Assembly: GCA_018646625.1 (NCBI GenBank)
Contig: JABGUJ010000002.1
Location: 1-64,000, forward strand
Origin: Candidatus Woesearchaeota archaeon
GTDB taxonomy: Archaea > Nanobdellota > Nanobdellia > Woesearchaeales > JABGUJ01
DNA length: 64,000 bases
Reading direction: 5' to 3'
Shown here: positions 3,675 to 9,945 of the stretch, piece by piece
Position numbering within the stretch: position 1 is the stretch's first letter
How the letters are laid out: the number at the start of each line of letters is the position of its first letter
Translations under genes and position numbers: made by a program
Notes under the pieces: model-generated
Database searches by the model: none
What the model was told of the DNA's origin: nothing
Seen by the model: only the letters and a program-made list of their open reading frames with translations

Positions 3675-3809
3675 TTTACTTTCTTCACATCAATTCCTTT
3701 GCTGCTTGTGAAAGTCTCTTTTTCTCATGAGTATTTGTATAGAATTAATAAAAAACCCTGGGAAAACGCAGTGACTTGCGCCATAATGCGTTAACCGTAG
3801 GGATATCAT

Positions 3810-3883
3810 GCCCCGAACGGGATTCGAACCCGTGTCCACGGCACGAAAGGCCGTAATGATTGACCGGACTACACCATCGGGGC
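3810..3883 (-). tRNA. tRNA-Glu (TTC)
   Basis: GCCCCGA...TCGGGGC acceptor; anticodon stem-loop ACGGC-CTTTCGT-GCCGT; T arm ACGGGTTCGAATCCCGT. Confidence 0.95.
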
Positions 3884-3899
3884 GTATAAAATGTATGAT

Positions 3900-4020
3900 G
3901 GGCCTGGGGGGATTTGAACCCCTGACCTCTGGCTGACTTAAATCCATGCCTTTGATTGTGATTTTGGAAGACATGCGGTCTTATAAGACCAGCGCTCTAA
4001 CCAGACTGAGCTACAGGCCC
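3900..4020 (-). tRNA. tRNA-Ile (TAT) with 47-nt intron (genomic 3935-3981) at position 37/38
   Basis: GGGCCTG/CAGGCCC acceptor; CTGGT/GCCAG anticodon stem; BHB motif with CTTA/TAAG central helix, bulges TAA and TCA; the spliced loop is CTTATAA, anticodon TAT. Confidence 0.85.
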
Positions 4021-4065: not shown

Positions 4066-4635
4066 TTACCACCTGTATCTTATTTTTCTATATTCTTCAA
4101 AAAGCACCGAATCTGATAAAACTTGATACCTTCTGTGCTTTACATTAAATCTTTCATAGGCTGGATCGACTAAAAATTCGCCAACCTCTGTTAGAACTGT
4201 TGCGCATGCATGATCAACTCTATCTCCTTTATGATCTTTTGAAACCTCTGTGTAATATGAGTCAATGCCAAGACATCGTGCAATCGTGATGTAAAGAAAA
4301 GCCATCTCTCCGCAAACACCGGTTTTATCTCTTAATACTTCTATTGAATTTCGATATATATATGGGAACCCTGTTTTTTTCTCATCTTTTCTTTCATAAT
4401 CGTATGTTATGTTTCTTAGCATCCAATCAAAGACTGCTCTTGATTTCTCATGTTTTGATTCTGTATGTGTTGTAAATGCATTTATTACCTTGGCCAGATC
4501 TTTGTCAATTACAAAAGGATAATCTGTTAGATCGCAACAAACTATTAGTCTGTAATCTGTATTGATGTGGGTAATATCTAGATGAGGTTTGTTATTTTGA
4601 TTGCTGTGTTTTATTCTAGTAACTAGGTCTGACAT
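4066..4635 (-). CDS. Transglutaminase-like (papain-fold) protein, last gene of the ubiquitin-like operon
   Basis: GVCGEMAFLYITIARCLGIDSYYTEV ... VDHACATV ... FLVDPAYERF fits the Cys-His-Asp transglutaminase core; overlaps the JAB ORF by 13 nt. Confidence 0.85.
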   Translation of the reverse strand: MSDLVTRIKHSNQNNKPHLDITHINTDYRLIVCCDLTDYPFVIDKDLAKVINAFTTHTESKHEKSRAVFDWMLRNITYDYERKDEKKTGFPYIYRNSIEVLRDKTGVCGEMAFLYITIARCLGIDSYYTEVSKDHKGDRVDHACATVLTEVGEFLVDPAYERFNVKHRRYQVLSDSVLFEEYRKIRYRW

Positions 4636-5831
4636 TTTAACTTTAGAAATATATCTTCTATTTGTGTTCTGTATCTTCTAGATGCATATCTATTTCTCTT
4701 TATAATCCTAGATAACATATCTACGTCTGCGACACTATATTTGGTGTCTTTCATTACTTTTCTCACTTCTGTTATTCTATCTTTCCAGAAATAAGTTCTT
4801 TTGTTATCTTGATAGAAATCTCCTGAGAGAATCTTTGCAATTCTTGCAATGCTTTTTGTTTCAGATATGTAAAATTTTCTGATTGCTTTTGTATAATTAA
4901 GATCTTTGTATTTTATTCTTTGTTCTAGTTTTGTAGTTCTATTTTTGGAGCTTGCCGAGATTTGATGATGGTTTGTGTCTATTTCATTAAGTATTTCTTC
5001 AAGTCTTTCTGGTGGGGGATTGCTGGACGCGATATCGGACTTGATCTTACCTCTTATATCATTACATATTTCTCTGATCTCTTTTGTTCTTACTCTGCGA
5101 TCATCGTCAACAATAACTATTTTTGGTTCGACTATGGTGTCTTCTGAAGACTCTTGTTTTATTTCTCCGTATGGTTCTTCATCTAATGAGTTAACTACTA
5201 CACTATATGCAAATCCTTTCTTTATTTTTCGTTTACTAGTTATGTTTTTGACATTTGGTTGATTTATTCTAGTCTCTTCAATTTCAATCTCAATTACTCT
5301 GTCTAGATTCTGAGGATCTCTTATTCTAAGAGTTCTGCTATCATTGTTTATCCACTCCGCTTTGTGCTCTGTTTCTTTCCATTGTACTCTTTCTGTTTCT
5401 ACTGTGAGTTGGTTGTGAGAATAAAGCATTGAAGATAGTCTAGAAAAGTTTTCTACATCTGTAGTTGAATGAAATGTTGGATGATCTCCATGACTGTGCC
5501 ACCATCCTATTATTTTTCGGTTATCAGATCTTATTTGTTCTATTGTTCTTAGTTCACTATCAGGATTGACTGTACAACTACTTGTTGTTACATATTGTTG
5601 AACTGGTATTATTGCGTCCGTTGCAATTCCGTCATCTTTGTCTCTTTCGGCTGTGAGATATCCATAACATTCTAGTGGTGATTCTGTGATTGATTTTATT
5701 AACTTGGCATACAAATGCATTTTAGTATATGCATAACGAGTTATTGTGATTTTATCAGGCATGATGAACTCAGCAGGTGTGGCCAAGAGTTCTCTGACTT
5801 TATAATTGGGCGAGATCATGTGTGTTCGCAC
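4623..5831 (-). CDS. JAB/JAMM (MPN) metallopeptidase-domain protein with long C-terminal extension
   Basis: Upstream Glu in PLECYGYL and WWHSHGDHPTFHSTTD, a complete H-x-H-x7-S-x2-D JAMM motif. Start may be the internal ATG at ~5819 (ATGA overlap with the E1 stop). Confidence 0.88.
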   Translation of the reverse strand: MRTHMISPNYKVRELLATPAEFIMPDKITITRYAYTKMHLYAKLIKSITESPLECYGYLTAERDKDDGIATDAIIPVQQYVTTSSCTVNPDSELRTIEQIRSDNRKIIGWWHSHGDHPTFHSTTDVENFSRLSSMLYSHNQLTVETERVQWKETEHKAEWINNDSRTLRIRDPQNLDRVIEIEIEETRINQPNVKNITSKRKIKKGFAYSVVVNSLDEEPYGEIKQESSEDTIVEPKIVIVDDDRRVRTKEIREICNDIRGKIKSDIASSNPPPERLEEILNEIDTNHHQISASSKNRTTKLEQRIKYKDLNYTKAIRKFYISETKSIARIAKILSGDFYQDNKRTYFWKDRITEVRKVMKDTKYSVADVDMLSRIIKRNRYASRRYRTQIEDIFLKLKCQT

Positions 5832-7006
5832 CTCTGTATTGTTTTTCGTATTCCTAGCGGATGATCGTCGAGGGAACTATAGAATAATTGTCCTTTAGTT
5901 GGTGAACTATTTGAAAGAATTCGTTTAGCTTCTGTAATTACTGCACATCCTATTACGCAATTTGTGTAAACTACCGATGGCTCGTGGCTATTGGAGATGC
6001 AACTATTTGTGTTATTTTTTTCAAATTTATTATCTACTAGTGGTGCCTGACACTCGATACATGCAGTTTTATCTGGTTGGTATGTTGTAACTTGTCCGTC
6101 GAATGGTGTTGTACCTCCATCAATTAGCGCGATTCTATTTGTTCTACATATTTGATTAAGATATTTTCTCGTTTCCGCATTATCGACACATGATATTATT
6201 AAATCATATTGTGCTTCGACAACTTTTGTTTCGTCAAAATAGTTTTCTGCTGCTTTTTGTTTTATTGATCTGAATCTTAACTGTGGGTGTATTTCTCTTA
6301 GTCTTCTAACACAGATGTCTGCTTTTGATTTTCCTGTGGATTCATCCAGTGTAAATAATGGTTGTCTGTTCTTGTTAGTTTCTTCAATTAAATCATCATC
6401 ACAAATAGTGATGTTGAATCCTTCTGCTGCGGCACAAAGACTTGTATAGTTTCCAAGTGCTCCTGCGCCAACTATTAGAATATTTCCTTGTGTTTTTTTT
6501 TGAATTGGATTGTTCTCGACTGTATTCCTGCCGCTTATAGTTCTTTCATAATCTCGTAGTCTAAATGCACTTCTCCGAATTTTATTAGTGATTGTGCCTG
6601 CGAGTATACCTAAGAAATCTATTTCGCAACTATGATTGAAGATTGTCTGTTGAGATTTGATGGTATATTTACTACTTGTTGTGTCAATAACAACACTTGA
6701 ATCGGTGCACATGTATGGGTGGGGGTGAGAGTGAAATGCATTAACAACTATCTCGGGATTCATCTTTTTAACAAGATCTTCTAGTTGTAAAACTCTGCTT
6801 TCTTGTGAGGGTACAAGAATAATTTCATTCTCTTTTGTTGCGTATGTGTGGTCGATTAAGGTTATTGCACCAACTTCAATTCCTGTGAGTGTGCATACCA
6901 TAAATTGTGCTAATGCATTAGTTCCGATTAGTGTAACTGAAATATCTTTAAGTGCGTCTTGATTCCAACCGATGATTTGTTCTTGTGTTAGTGTTCTTTG
7001 TCTCAT
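5816..7006 (-). CDS. E1-like/ThiF adenylyltransferase with an extra degenerate N-terminal adenylation-like domain
   Basis: NILIVGAGALGNY, DDDLIEETNKNRQ, STGKSKAD, ISCVDNAETRKYLN, CIEC; the N-terminal half shows VTLIGTNALAQF..GAITLIDH..TKENEIIL..KMNPEIVVNAF. Confidence 0.9.
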   Translation of the reverse strand: MRQRTLTQEQIIGWNQDALKDISVTLIGTNALAQFMVCTLTGIEVGAITLIDHTYATKENEIILVPSQESRVLQLEDLVKKMNPEIVVNAFHSHPHPYMCTDSSVVIDTTSSKYTIKSQQTIFNHSCEIDFLGILAGTITNKIRRSAFRLRDYERTISGRNTVENNPIQKKTQGNILIVGAGALGNYTSLCAAAEGFNITICDDDLIEETNKNRQPLFTLDESTGKSKADICVRRLREIHPQLRFRSIKQKAAENYFDETKVVEAQYDLIISCVDNAETRKYLNQICRTNRIALIDGGTTPFDGQVTTYQPDKTACIECQAPLVDNKFEKNNTNSCISNSHEPSVVYTNCVIGCAVITEAKRILSNSSPTKGQLFYSSLDDHPLGIRKTIQRCEHT

Positions 7007-8149
7007 TTAATTCACATAATTATTTGGAAAATTGTCTGGAGAAAGATCTTTGTAGGGTGTTGCACCCTCTAAGTAACCATGTACGATATTATTTGCAGCT
7101 AGAACTAAGTTTGCATATGCTTTTTCATGCGGAATTGCGATTGAGTCGGGAATCTTATTTGTCCCCATACATATATTTTGAAATGATTTGTTTCTTTCTG
7201 ATAAGAATGGATGAGAATAATGTTCAACAATTTGTGGGTGTGATTGCTGTATTGTTCCGTGTCTTATTCTTATCTTTGTAGCAACACGACAACTGTTGAA
7301 ATAGTATTTCTCACTAGTACATTGATGAGTGGTTCTAATTGAGAAATTAGGAATTCTTAAGTAAATATAATAATCATCACCTTTTGAAAATACTCCTAAA
7401 TTATCTTTTTCGCAGAATCCATTTTCTTTTAACTCGAGAAGCAACCTGCTTTTTTGAGTCGCTAATTTATCATCATATTTGGTTTGTAATTTGATTGAAG
7501 AACTTAACTCTGATTGTACTCTTCTTTCTAATTGGTTAAGGTTGGCTGAGCTGGTGGAGATCTCTAGATGCTGTTCTCCATATTTAATCTGAAAATTCGC
7601 AGGATTGTGTTGTGAGTTTAATGAATAAACTCTGTTCTGCCACACAAGAATGGTGTTATTTGTTAACGGAGTGGGGAGCTGAGTTGTTTGGTTGGATTGG
7701 AGGGTGTGGAGTAATTTTGTTAGATTGGTGGACCAAGATAGCAATCTTTTTGTTGTTTGATTATGAACTCTTGAGGTGTGTAGAGGTAGTATCTTTTCAA
7801 AGATTTCATTTAGAATTACTTCTTGACTGAGATTAGTATAGTATTCTGTTTCACGTTGACGTGATTTGACTAATTGCTTAGATCTTAGTAAATTGACTGC
7901 TGCATCTATTTTATGTTTTTGAGATCTTATGTAATATTTGTGTAGATCATCTAGCGAGCAAGACCTTTCCAAAGGAATTTCTTCAGCCCCTATTACGAGT
8001 TTTGTGTAAGAAGAGGTTTTGAAATTTTTGCAAGGCTCCCATAATCTGTTATCGAGAAGTGCACATAATTTTATACTTTTCAGGTGATGTATTATTGTGT
8101 GCGTTGGAAGCTCTGCTATACCTTTGACTTTTGTAACCAAGTCCAACAT
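7007..8149 (-). CDS. Hypothetical protein with a possible C-terminal E2/RWD-like domain
   Basis: HPQIVEHYSHPFLSERNKSFQNICMGTNK near the C-terminus resembles the HPx...G-x-(I/V)-C-(L/M)-G region of prokaryotic E2-like proteins; the gene directly precedes the E1 gene. Confidence 0.55.
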   Translation of the reverse strand: MLDLVTKVKGIAELPTHTIIHHLKSIKLCALLDNRLWEPCKNFKTSSYTKLVIGAEEIPLERSCSLDDLHKYYIRSQKHKIDAAVNLLRSKQLVKSRQRETEYYTNLSQEVILNEIFEKILPLHTSRVHNQTTKRLLSWSTNLTKLLHTLQSNQTTQLPTPLTNNTILVWQNRVYSLNSQHNPANFQIKYGEQHLEISTSSANLNQLERRVQSELSSSIKLQTKYDDKLATQKSRLLLELKENGFCEKDNLGVFSKGDDYYIYLRIPNFSIRTTHQCTSEKYYFNSCRVATKIRIRHGTIQQSHPQIVEHYSHPFLSERNKSFQNICMGTNKIPDSIAIPHEKAYANLVLAANNIVHGYLEGATPYKDLSPDNFPNNYVN

Positions 8150-8150
8150 C

Positions 8151-8609
8151 TTATTTGTATCCGCCTAGACCTTGGGTTGCAACTTCTATATCGAGTCCTT
8201 TGTATTTCTGTGAATCTATAGAACGTTCCTCAAAAAAGAATGGATTTCCATCTAATGCTCTTGCGTTGGGATTAAGGTATTTTTTTGGCTCGACGTCATC
8301 TCTTTCTAGATATCCGTTATCAAATTCTCTTTGATTACCTTCTTCATCTAATGCTCTTATTGCTAGAATCTCTATGCCTGTTGTTTGTGGATTTTCTAAG
8401 AACGCGTTGCACCTTGTTAACATTTCATTAACTGAATTTGCTATGTTTTTCTCGTCGTCATTAAATCCATTATCTTTAACTAAGTAATGTATTAGATCTT
8501 TTATTGTGGTTTCTGGATTTGATTCTAGTTTCTCAGTTACTTCTTTTGTTATTGGCTCAACTTCTGCAAATGGATGCTTAAGTCTAGCGATGTATCTATC
8601 TTTGCTCAT
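8151..8609 (-). CDS. GG-tailed small protein; candidate ubiquitin-like modifier precursor or substrate
   Basis: 152 aa ending ...EVATQGLGGYK; first gene of the operon; 1 nt before the E2-like start; RBS-like GGGTGATAATATG. Confidence 0.7.
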   Translation of the reverse strand: MSKDRYIARLKHPFAEVEPITKEVTEKLESNPETTIKDLIHYLVKDNGFNDDEKNIANSVNEMLTRCNAFLENPQTTGIEILAIRALDEEGNQREFDNGYLERDDVEPKKYLNPNARALDGNPFFFEERSIDSQKYKGLDIEVATQGLGGYK

Positions 8610-8844: not shown

Positions 8845-9945
8845 ATGAAAAAGAGGGGTAGGAAAGCGTCTACTGCTAGTGCGGGGCGTAAAAAAGGGGT
8901 GAAGAGGAAATCTTCTTCTAGATCTGTTGTTAAAAAACGCACTTCTAAGTCTATTAAGAAAAAGACTGTTAAACGAAAAAAGTCGACTAAGAAAAAGGCT
9001 GTGCGTAAAGCTTCTACAAAGAAGAAAACAGTACGTAAAGCGTCCGTTAAACGTAAGGTTGTTAGAAAAATAAAATCACGTTCTAAAGTTTCGAGAAAAG
9101 AAGTTTGGGCTGTTAAACGTAGACGAGTTGTTAATAAATTTGAACATCTGGTGAAGGATGAGCTTGTTAAAGTTGAGAGATCGGTAGTTCCGAAAAAAGA
9201 AGGCCACACCATACCAAAGGGTATTAGAGTTCTGGTTGGTTATTTTTCTGTTATTGCGTTACTTTACTTAGTTTTTATGGTGCTTGGATTCGCATCACCC
9301 GTTGCATTGTTGTTTTCTAATGTTTTACAAGGCGGATGGGCGATGTTCGTTAATGTTATTGTGTTTCTTCTTCTTTGTTACATAATATATGGTTTTATTA
9401 GAAGAGCGAAAGCTTCATTTTATATTGCATTTGCTTGGATGTGTTTGGGTATTATTAATTCAATCACATCGTTAGTATTCATTGAACGAACAAGTCTAGA
9501 TGCCCTGAACAATCTAATTGCGCTATCTTCATATGCTGTGTTGCTGATTAACGGACTAGTTATATGGTATTTATTACATGAACATCACTATTTTTTTGAT
9601 TTACATTATAAGCGAAAAGAACTCATGAAACAAGACAAGTGGTTTATTTCAGTTATATCTGTTATCTGGATTGTTATATTGTTATCATCTCTGTTTGTTG
9701 GTGTCGATTTCTACAAACATACAACTCAATTAACAGACGATATTGTTGATGAGATTAGTCAGAAATATTTCTGGCAAATAGGATCACATTGTGATTCAAA
9801 GATGGGAGATTCTCGAGATTTATGCTTTATGATTCATGCAGCTTTGAAAAAGCGAGAAGGTTATACGAATTATGCTCGAACTTGCGATAAAATAAGTTCA
9901 GATGTTTACAAATTCACTTGTCAGAGGTTGGTAGAAGAGTGGTAA
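8845..9945 (+). CDS. Membrane protein with a histone-H1-like Lys/Ser-rich N-terminal tail
   Basis: ~75 residues of KKKAVRKASTKKKTVRKAS-type repeats, then several hydrophobic segments. Confidence 0.85.
   Translation: MKKRGRKASTASAGRKKGVKRKSSSRSVVKKRTSKSIKKKTVKRKKSTKKKAVRKASTKKKTVRKASVKRKVVRKIKSRSKVSRKEVWAVKRRRVVNKFEHLVKDELVKVERSVVPKKEGHTIPKGIRVLVGYFSVIALLYLVFMVLGFASPVALLFSNVLQGGWAMFVNVIVFLLLCYIIYGFIRRAKASFYIAFAWMCLGIINSITSLVFIERTSLDALNNLIALSSYAVLLINGLVIWYLLHEHHYFFDLHYKRKELMKQDKWFISVISVIWIVILLSSLFVGVDFYKHTTQLTDDIVDEISQKYFWQIGSHCDSKMGDSRDLCFMIHAALKKREGYTNYARTCDKISSDVYKFTCQRLVEEW

Follow-up and report, generated by a model that had tools for sequence, protein, structure and literature searches.

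The first 64,000 nucleotides of contig JABGUJ010000002.1 from a Candidatus Woesearchaeota archaeon (assembly GCA_018646625.1), hereafter the window, carry a five-gene minus-strand operon (8609-4066) that we read, with a probability of about 0.8, as a self-contained reversible ubiquitin-like (Ubl) conjugation system whose output is most plausibly the regulated unfolding or degradation of proteins via Cdc48/PAN-20S. The genes encode, in order, a Ubl modifier, a 380-amino-acid (aa) E2-like protein (E2L), an E1 activating enzyme, a JAMM metalloprotease (JAB), and a transglutaminase-fold protein (TG), so that the operon is of the Ubl-E2L-E1-JAB type. An original prediction made from the nucleotide sequence had proposed a conjugation operon with modifier, E1, E2-like protein, and JAMM peptidase in a DPANN archaeon, and our analysis supports it in large part. 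The five open reading frames (ORFs) lie where it had placed them in the ORF listing of the window, and the tight junctions that it described are confirmed from the sequence: a 1-nt gap between the Ubl and E2L genes (TAAGATG), abutting E2L and E1 genes (TAAATG), an ATGA overlap between E1 and JAB if the ATG at 5819 is taken as the JAB start (the ORF caller places it further upstream, at a GTG at 5831), and a 13-nt overlap (4623-4635) between JAB and TG. Neither the 152-aa modifier nor E2L has a meaningful match to any Pfam, NCBIfam, or PADLOC family.

The 152-aa protein (8151..8609, minus strand) is a predicted modifier precursor, a reading that draws on an AlphaFold2 model, on its Foldseek neighbours, and on an enrichment of glycine pairs in its family. 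The model, with a predicted local distance difference test (pLDDT) score of 85 and a predicted template modelling (pTM) score of 0.82, is a beta-grasp fold with the succession beta-beta-alpha-(alpha)-beta-beta-beta, which is the strand and helix order of ubiquitin plus one extra helix, and its top Foldseek matches are mostly ubiquitin-like domains (USP11/15/7/4, Caldiarchaeum ubiquitin, FAT10). The protein thus models as a beta-grasp modifier with C-terminal glycines, in keeping with the role first proposed for it. It had been called GG-tailed, which holds for the presence of the pair but not for its position: the tail reads TQGLGGYK, and Gly149-Gly150 (8160..8165, minus strand), the processing and conjugation site predicted from the sequence, is followed by Tyr-Lys, so that the precursor would need processing. 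Among homologues, 2-13 residues follow the GG. The pair occurs within the last 20 residues of 20/41 family members and of 24/370 control ORFs (Fisher p 3e-11, an optimistic value since the family members are related to one another). Against this reading stand two observations, namely that no Foldseek match reaches E <0.001 and that about half of the homologues lack the GG pair, ending in GA, SG, or otherwise. A search of PDB sequences with the family profile gave nothing useful.

The same gene association recurs in other genomes. The window E1, used by itself as query against a collection of genome contigs, brought up no relatives, so that the genomes of the order had to be searched in full. 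With the single E2L sequence, 21 of the 244 genomes of the order match (the host included), and adjacent E1 and JAB genes are already visible around these matches; with a profile of the E2L family, matches appear in 34 of the 284 genomes of the phylum, with up to five per genome. The combined set comprises about 58 related E2-like ORFs, and within 5 kb of these 58 the E1 family is found on the same strand in 51, the JAB family on the same strand in 45, and a recognised Ubl in 36, usually in the orders Ubl-E2L-JAB-E1 and Ubl-E2L-E1-JAB. Given this co-location of E1 and JAB with E2L homologues elsewhere, the gene set is more than a chance association. Since E2L had been the entry point to all these loci, a non-circular check was made with no query but the Ubl profile: it yielded four loci outside the earlier set, three of them with adjacent E1 and JAB genes (two also with a recognised E2L), the fourth being an orphan Ubl. 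The related loci from the same order belong to Woesearchaeota/Nanoarchaeia metagenome-assembled genomes, which fits the DPANN affiliation guessed at the outset. No match was found for a closer subgroup of the E2L family in viral contigs (the wide alignment being too diverged for the scan), for E2L in plasmids by tblastn, or for the Ubl in phages by tblastn.

This patchy distribution, with as many as five matches in one genome, would suit an antiviral defence system that blocks infection by attaching the Ubl to viral or host proteins, as in Bil or type II cyclic-oligonucleotide-based antiphage signalling (CBASS), and the same can be said of the weak to moderate matches to PADLOC E1-E2 and JAB models and of the Ser/Thr kinases present in one subgroup of the related operons. 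We nevertheless consider defence unlikely: the operon was found to encode neither a CD-NTase nor any other known defence effector, the PADLOC families among the listed matches of 123 neighbouring proteins are kinase models, the Pfam families of the neighbours are, among the matches listed, mostly housekeeping ones, and the operon has a normal GC content at third codon positions (GC3) with no mobile signature seen. The role in signalling, protein tagging, or defence initially suggested is thereby narrowed to protein tagging, the defence part being unsupported.

E2L (7007..8149, minus strand) is probably the E2-like conjugating enzyme of the system, an assignment based on a motif, on hhalign comparisons, and on a structural model. 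The N-terminal half consists of two repeats of one module (hhalign 97.4%), and a C-terminal UBC-like domain (~204-378) follows. Family conservation points to Cys327 (codon 7169..7171, minus strand) as the predicted thioester site, within an HPx(n)C motif in which the Cys is present in 58/58 rows covering it, Pro314 in 97%, and His313 in 93%; this conserved His-Pro pair sits before the Cys, and no conserved His is listed after it. In the model of the C-terminal half (pLDDT ~85-95), a long helix leads into several strands, after which come the HPx(n)C segment and another helix, and this predicted order of elements is that of a UBC domain. In an unguided hhalign comparison with a profile of three human E2s, Cys327 falls on the catalytic Cys with a marginal score (P 0.023), and 1/150 column shuffles scored as high. 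Several searches weigh against an E2 identity: Foldseek with the 380-aa model returned no significant E2 and only noise (the E2 Atg10 ranking 38th, E 2.1), none of 27 family members matches the Pfam E2 family PF00179 at E 1, and the family profile has no match among PDB sequences. Of the E2-like C-terminus suggested by the original prediction, the motif is therefore strong and the fold lacks significant Foldseek support, which makes this protein the weakest link of the scheme. Such an absence of any significant fold or family match would also be expected if it had an unrelated fold and served as scaffold or substrate, with conjugation proceeding directly from the E1, SAMP-style. We judge this rather improbable, because it would leave unexplained a Cys found in every covering row with the upstream His-Pro in at least 93%, its unsupervised placement on the E2 active site, and a predicted helix-strands-HPx..C-helix order that fits the UBC domain.

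The E1 (5816..7006, minus strand; Pfam ThiF 3e-45) combines a pseudo-Rossmann domain (1-165) with an active ThiF domain (166-396). The two halves are homologous (hhalign 99.7%), so that this is a tandem enzyme with one inactive and one active half, as in conjugating E1s and as had been predicted. Residues G180, G182, D203, D205, N211, R214, K228, and D275 are invariant in the rows covering them (~50 E1 rows), and both the nucleotide site and the catalytic Cys of this ThiF/E1 protein appear intact. The candidate for the latter is Cys336 (codon 5999..6001, minus strand), 98% conserved, in a motif SC..(8)..V...N that continues with V and N349 and is present in nearly all rows. The SUMO E1 subunit UBA2 is among the best PDB matches (3e-15), and we take the Cys336 motif to be equivalent to the catalytic-Cys region of UBA2. 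The best scores of the catalytic half are with ThiF/MoeB/UbaA models, and besides this E1 no ThiF-family gene was detected in the host genome (1.57 Mb, 4 contigs, 96% complete). Both facts would be compatible with a sulfur carrier of the Urm1/SAMP/MoaD kind, where the E1 would convert the modifier into a thiocarboxylate for tRNA thiolation or cofactor synthesis, as would a class-V aminotransferase (a desulfurase-type family) that one related operon encodes and of which two others carry cluster relatives. Such a function is nonetheless very unlikely for the operon of the window, since sulfur transfer has no use for a conserved JAMM protease or for an E2-like protein that bears a Cys, the E1 lacks a rhodanese domain, its tandem architecture resembles that of conjugating E1s, and Iyer et al. 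2006 (PMC1779556) argue that E1-JAB pairs stand nearer to ubiquitin transfer. The three aminotransferase loci (L086 and, with its cluster relatives, L087 and L090) have a small protein before E2L that in most of them lacks a GG at its tail, a combination that may hint at a sulfur link in those operons.

The JAB gene (4623..5819, minus strand; Prok-JAB 2.4e-11) encodes ~398 aa from the ATG, with an N-terminal JAMM domain and a long C-terminal extension that bears out the earlier description of a long JAB. Numbered from the GTG start, E54, H112, H114, S122, and D125 are 98-100% conserved and form an intact E/HxHx7Sx2D motif. C-terminal of the JAMM domain, the same ORF (4623-5831) shows an S-V-N pattern (S210, V212, N214) that is 78-90% conserved. 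The last gene of the operon, TG (4066..4635, minus strand; Transglut_core 1.3e-9, DUF553 4.9e-9), has a Cys108/His142/Asp157 triad invariant in 6/6 members. With this intact triad and its tight coupling to the operon in the window, TG rather than E2L might be imagined as the ligase, crosslinking the modifier to glutamines, a highly improbable arrangement given that TG lies within 5 kb of E2L in just 5/58 other loci and that the eight genomes scanned hold 1-4 Transglut_core genes each, several of them unrelated to the operon. With 5/58 loci, the transglutaminase does not stand as a defining part of the system, contrary to what had been proposed.

Returning to reversible conjugation, the working of the system can be envisaged as follows. 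The JAMM protease would trim the modifier precursor after Gly150, releasing Tyr-Lys, a step with a precedent in Caldiarchaeum, where the Rpn11 JAMM enzyme trims pro-ubiquitin before E1 activation (PMC5654768). The tandem E1 would then adenylate the exposed GG and form a thioester on Cys336, from which the modifier would move to Cys327 of E2L and be attached to target lysines. The duplicated N-terminal module of E2L may help to bind the E1, the modifier, or the substrate, because no RING E3 was found. Finally, the JAMM protease, perhaps together with TG, would take the modifier off, while tagged proteins would be unfolded or degraded in a regulated way by the Cdc48/PAN-20S proteasome machinery of the host. 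Reversible protein tagging is well supported by the co-located gene set, its conserved catalytic residues, the beta-grasp model, and the tandem E1; a possible link to AAA+/proteasome turnover is inferred. The genome contains two proteasome-family matches (20S alpha and beta), a protein of 762 aa with a pair of AAA domains, and an ATPase of 388 aa that looks PAN-like from inspection of its sequence and an AAA match. Some related operons carry AAA+ genes, one copy with proteasomal-ATPase OB domains. What counts against the proteasome link is that its basis is the presence of these genes and a minority of the operons.

Several features of the related operons bear on possible partners. In L037 (9157-10650), the AAA+ ATPase with proteasomal-ATPase OB domains lies directly upstream of the Ubl gene, and a cluster relative occupies the same place in L042 (9606-11090), possibly a direct operon-level tie between the Ubl system and a proteasome-type unfoldase. 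A family of large proteins is encoded downstream of the E1 in many operons (L029, L042, L048, L053, L085, L086, L087, L090, and L092), with 14 ORFs in one cluster; the scanned members have no Pfam match, and they are candidate adaptors or ligases. Loci L032, L034, and L045 have two JAB genes, one short and one long, together with a second, GG-less Ubl gene further upstream. A RING E3 was also considered and rejected, as there is no such ORF in the operon of the window and no RING pattern in 168 operon-associated ORFs.

The operon is bounded, as originally described, by a tRNA-Ile on one side and a divergent gene beginning at 8845 (plus strand) on the other. The tRNA-Ile (3899-4020; Rfam tRNA), with an intron of ~48 nt and a UAU anticodon loop, was missed by ARAGORN at default settings and recovered by Rfam; a tRNA-Glu (3809-3883) adjoins it. 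The GC and GC3 of the operon match those of the rest of the window and so give no sign of recent foreign origin; recent horizontal acquisition is not supported by this normal composition.

Archaeal systems complete with E1, E2, JAMM, and modifier are on record for Aigarchaeota and Asgard archaea, where they have served as an argument for an archaeal origin of eukaryotic ubiquitin. Our search of the open-access literature, with subscription papers and preprints outside its reach, turned up no account of operons like these from Woesearchaeota or DPANN and no recent papers on further bacterial ubiquitination-like systems. The related but highly varied operons found here suggest a ubiquitin-type system outside the archaeal groups with known complete ones. 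It is conceivable, though we would put it somewhat short of even odds, that such systems have undergone a radiation of their own within DPANN and form a third archaeal line next to SAMP/Urm1 and Caldiarchaeum/Asgard; their Ubl and E2 families would be new and escape current profile libraries, one small genome could hold several paralogous systems, and AAA+ partners encoded in the operons would route tagged proteins to unfolding or degradation. An unannotated and diverse family of such systems in reduced DPANN genomes, whose Ubl and E2-like proteins Pfam, NCBIfam, and PADLOC do not recognise, would widen the known ubiquitin-type sequence space, would mean that existing surveys overlook them, and would give biochemistry minimal systems. 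Whether His-Pro...Cys E2s arose once or several times would become testable.

Compared with the systems already described, this operon resembles in kind that of Caldiarchaeum and Asgard (ubiquitin, E1, E2, small RING, and Rpn11/JAMM; PMC5654768, PMC6043591), which is likewise archaeal and operonic and shares a Ubl modifier with a short propeptide after the GG, an E1, an E2-type protein, a JAMM enzyme, and a proteasome-bearing host. It differs in that ubiquitin and UBC Pfam models do not recognise its modifier and E2-like protein, no RING protein turned up in the operon, two additional repeats make up the N-terminal part of E2L, the JAMM protein is long, and the E1 is a tandem in one 396-aa chain. 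With Bil (BilA-D) and operon type 6d of Iyer et al. 2006 it shares the four-gene set of Ubl, E2-type protein, JAB, and tandem E1; a BilD-type layout of inactive and active halves is present, with a weak BilD PADLOC match (8.5e-4). However, in the CEHH motif of BilB the Cys is followed by the conserved His (PMC11354881), and 6d E2s have no upstream His (PMC1779556), whereas E2L has His-Pro before the Cys as in classical E2s, and BilA has two Ubl domains whereas the modifier has one. Type II CBASS Cap2/Cap3 and the 6a/6b E2-E1(-JAB) fusions share the E2, E1, and JAB chemistry, but here the genes are separate, a dedicated Ubl is encoded, and no CD-NTase family match occurs in the operon; membership in Bil or CBASS was accordingly rejected on motif and layout. 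SAMP/UbaA and Urm1 (Haloferax, Sulfolobus) have in common with it an archaeal Ubl, a MoeB-like E1, and a JAMM desampylase (a weak match), but they need no E2 and use a single-domain E1 and ThiS/MoaD-like modifiers, in contrast with the tandem E1 and the adjacent E2-like protein found here. The original claim that the layout fits none of the known systems it listed thus holds for those compared, and the operon is most likely a variant of the known Ubl-conjugation kind that differs from the Bil, CBASS, SAMP, and Caldiarchaeum-type systems.

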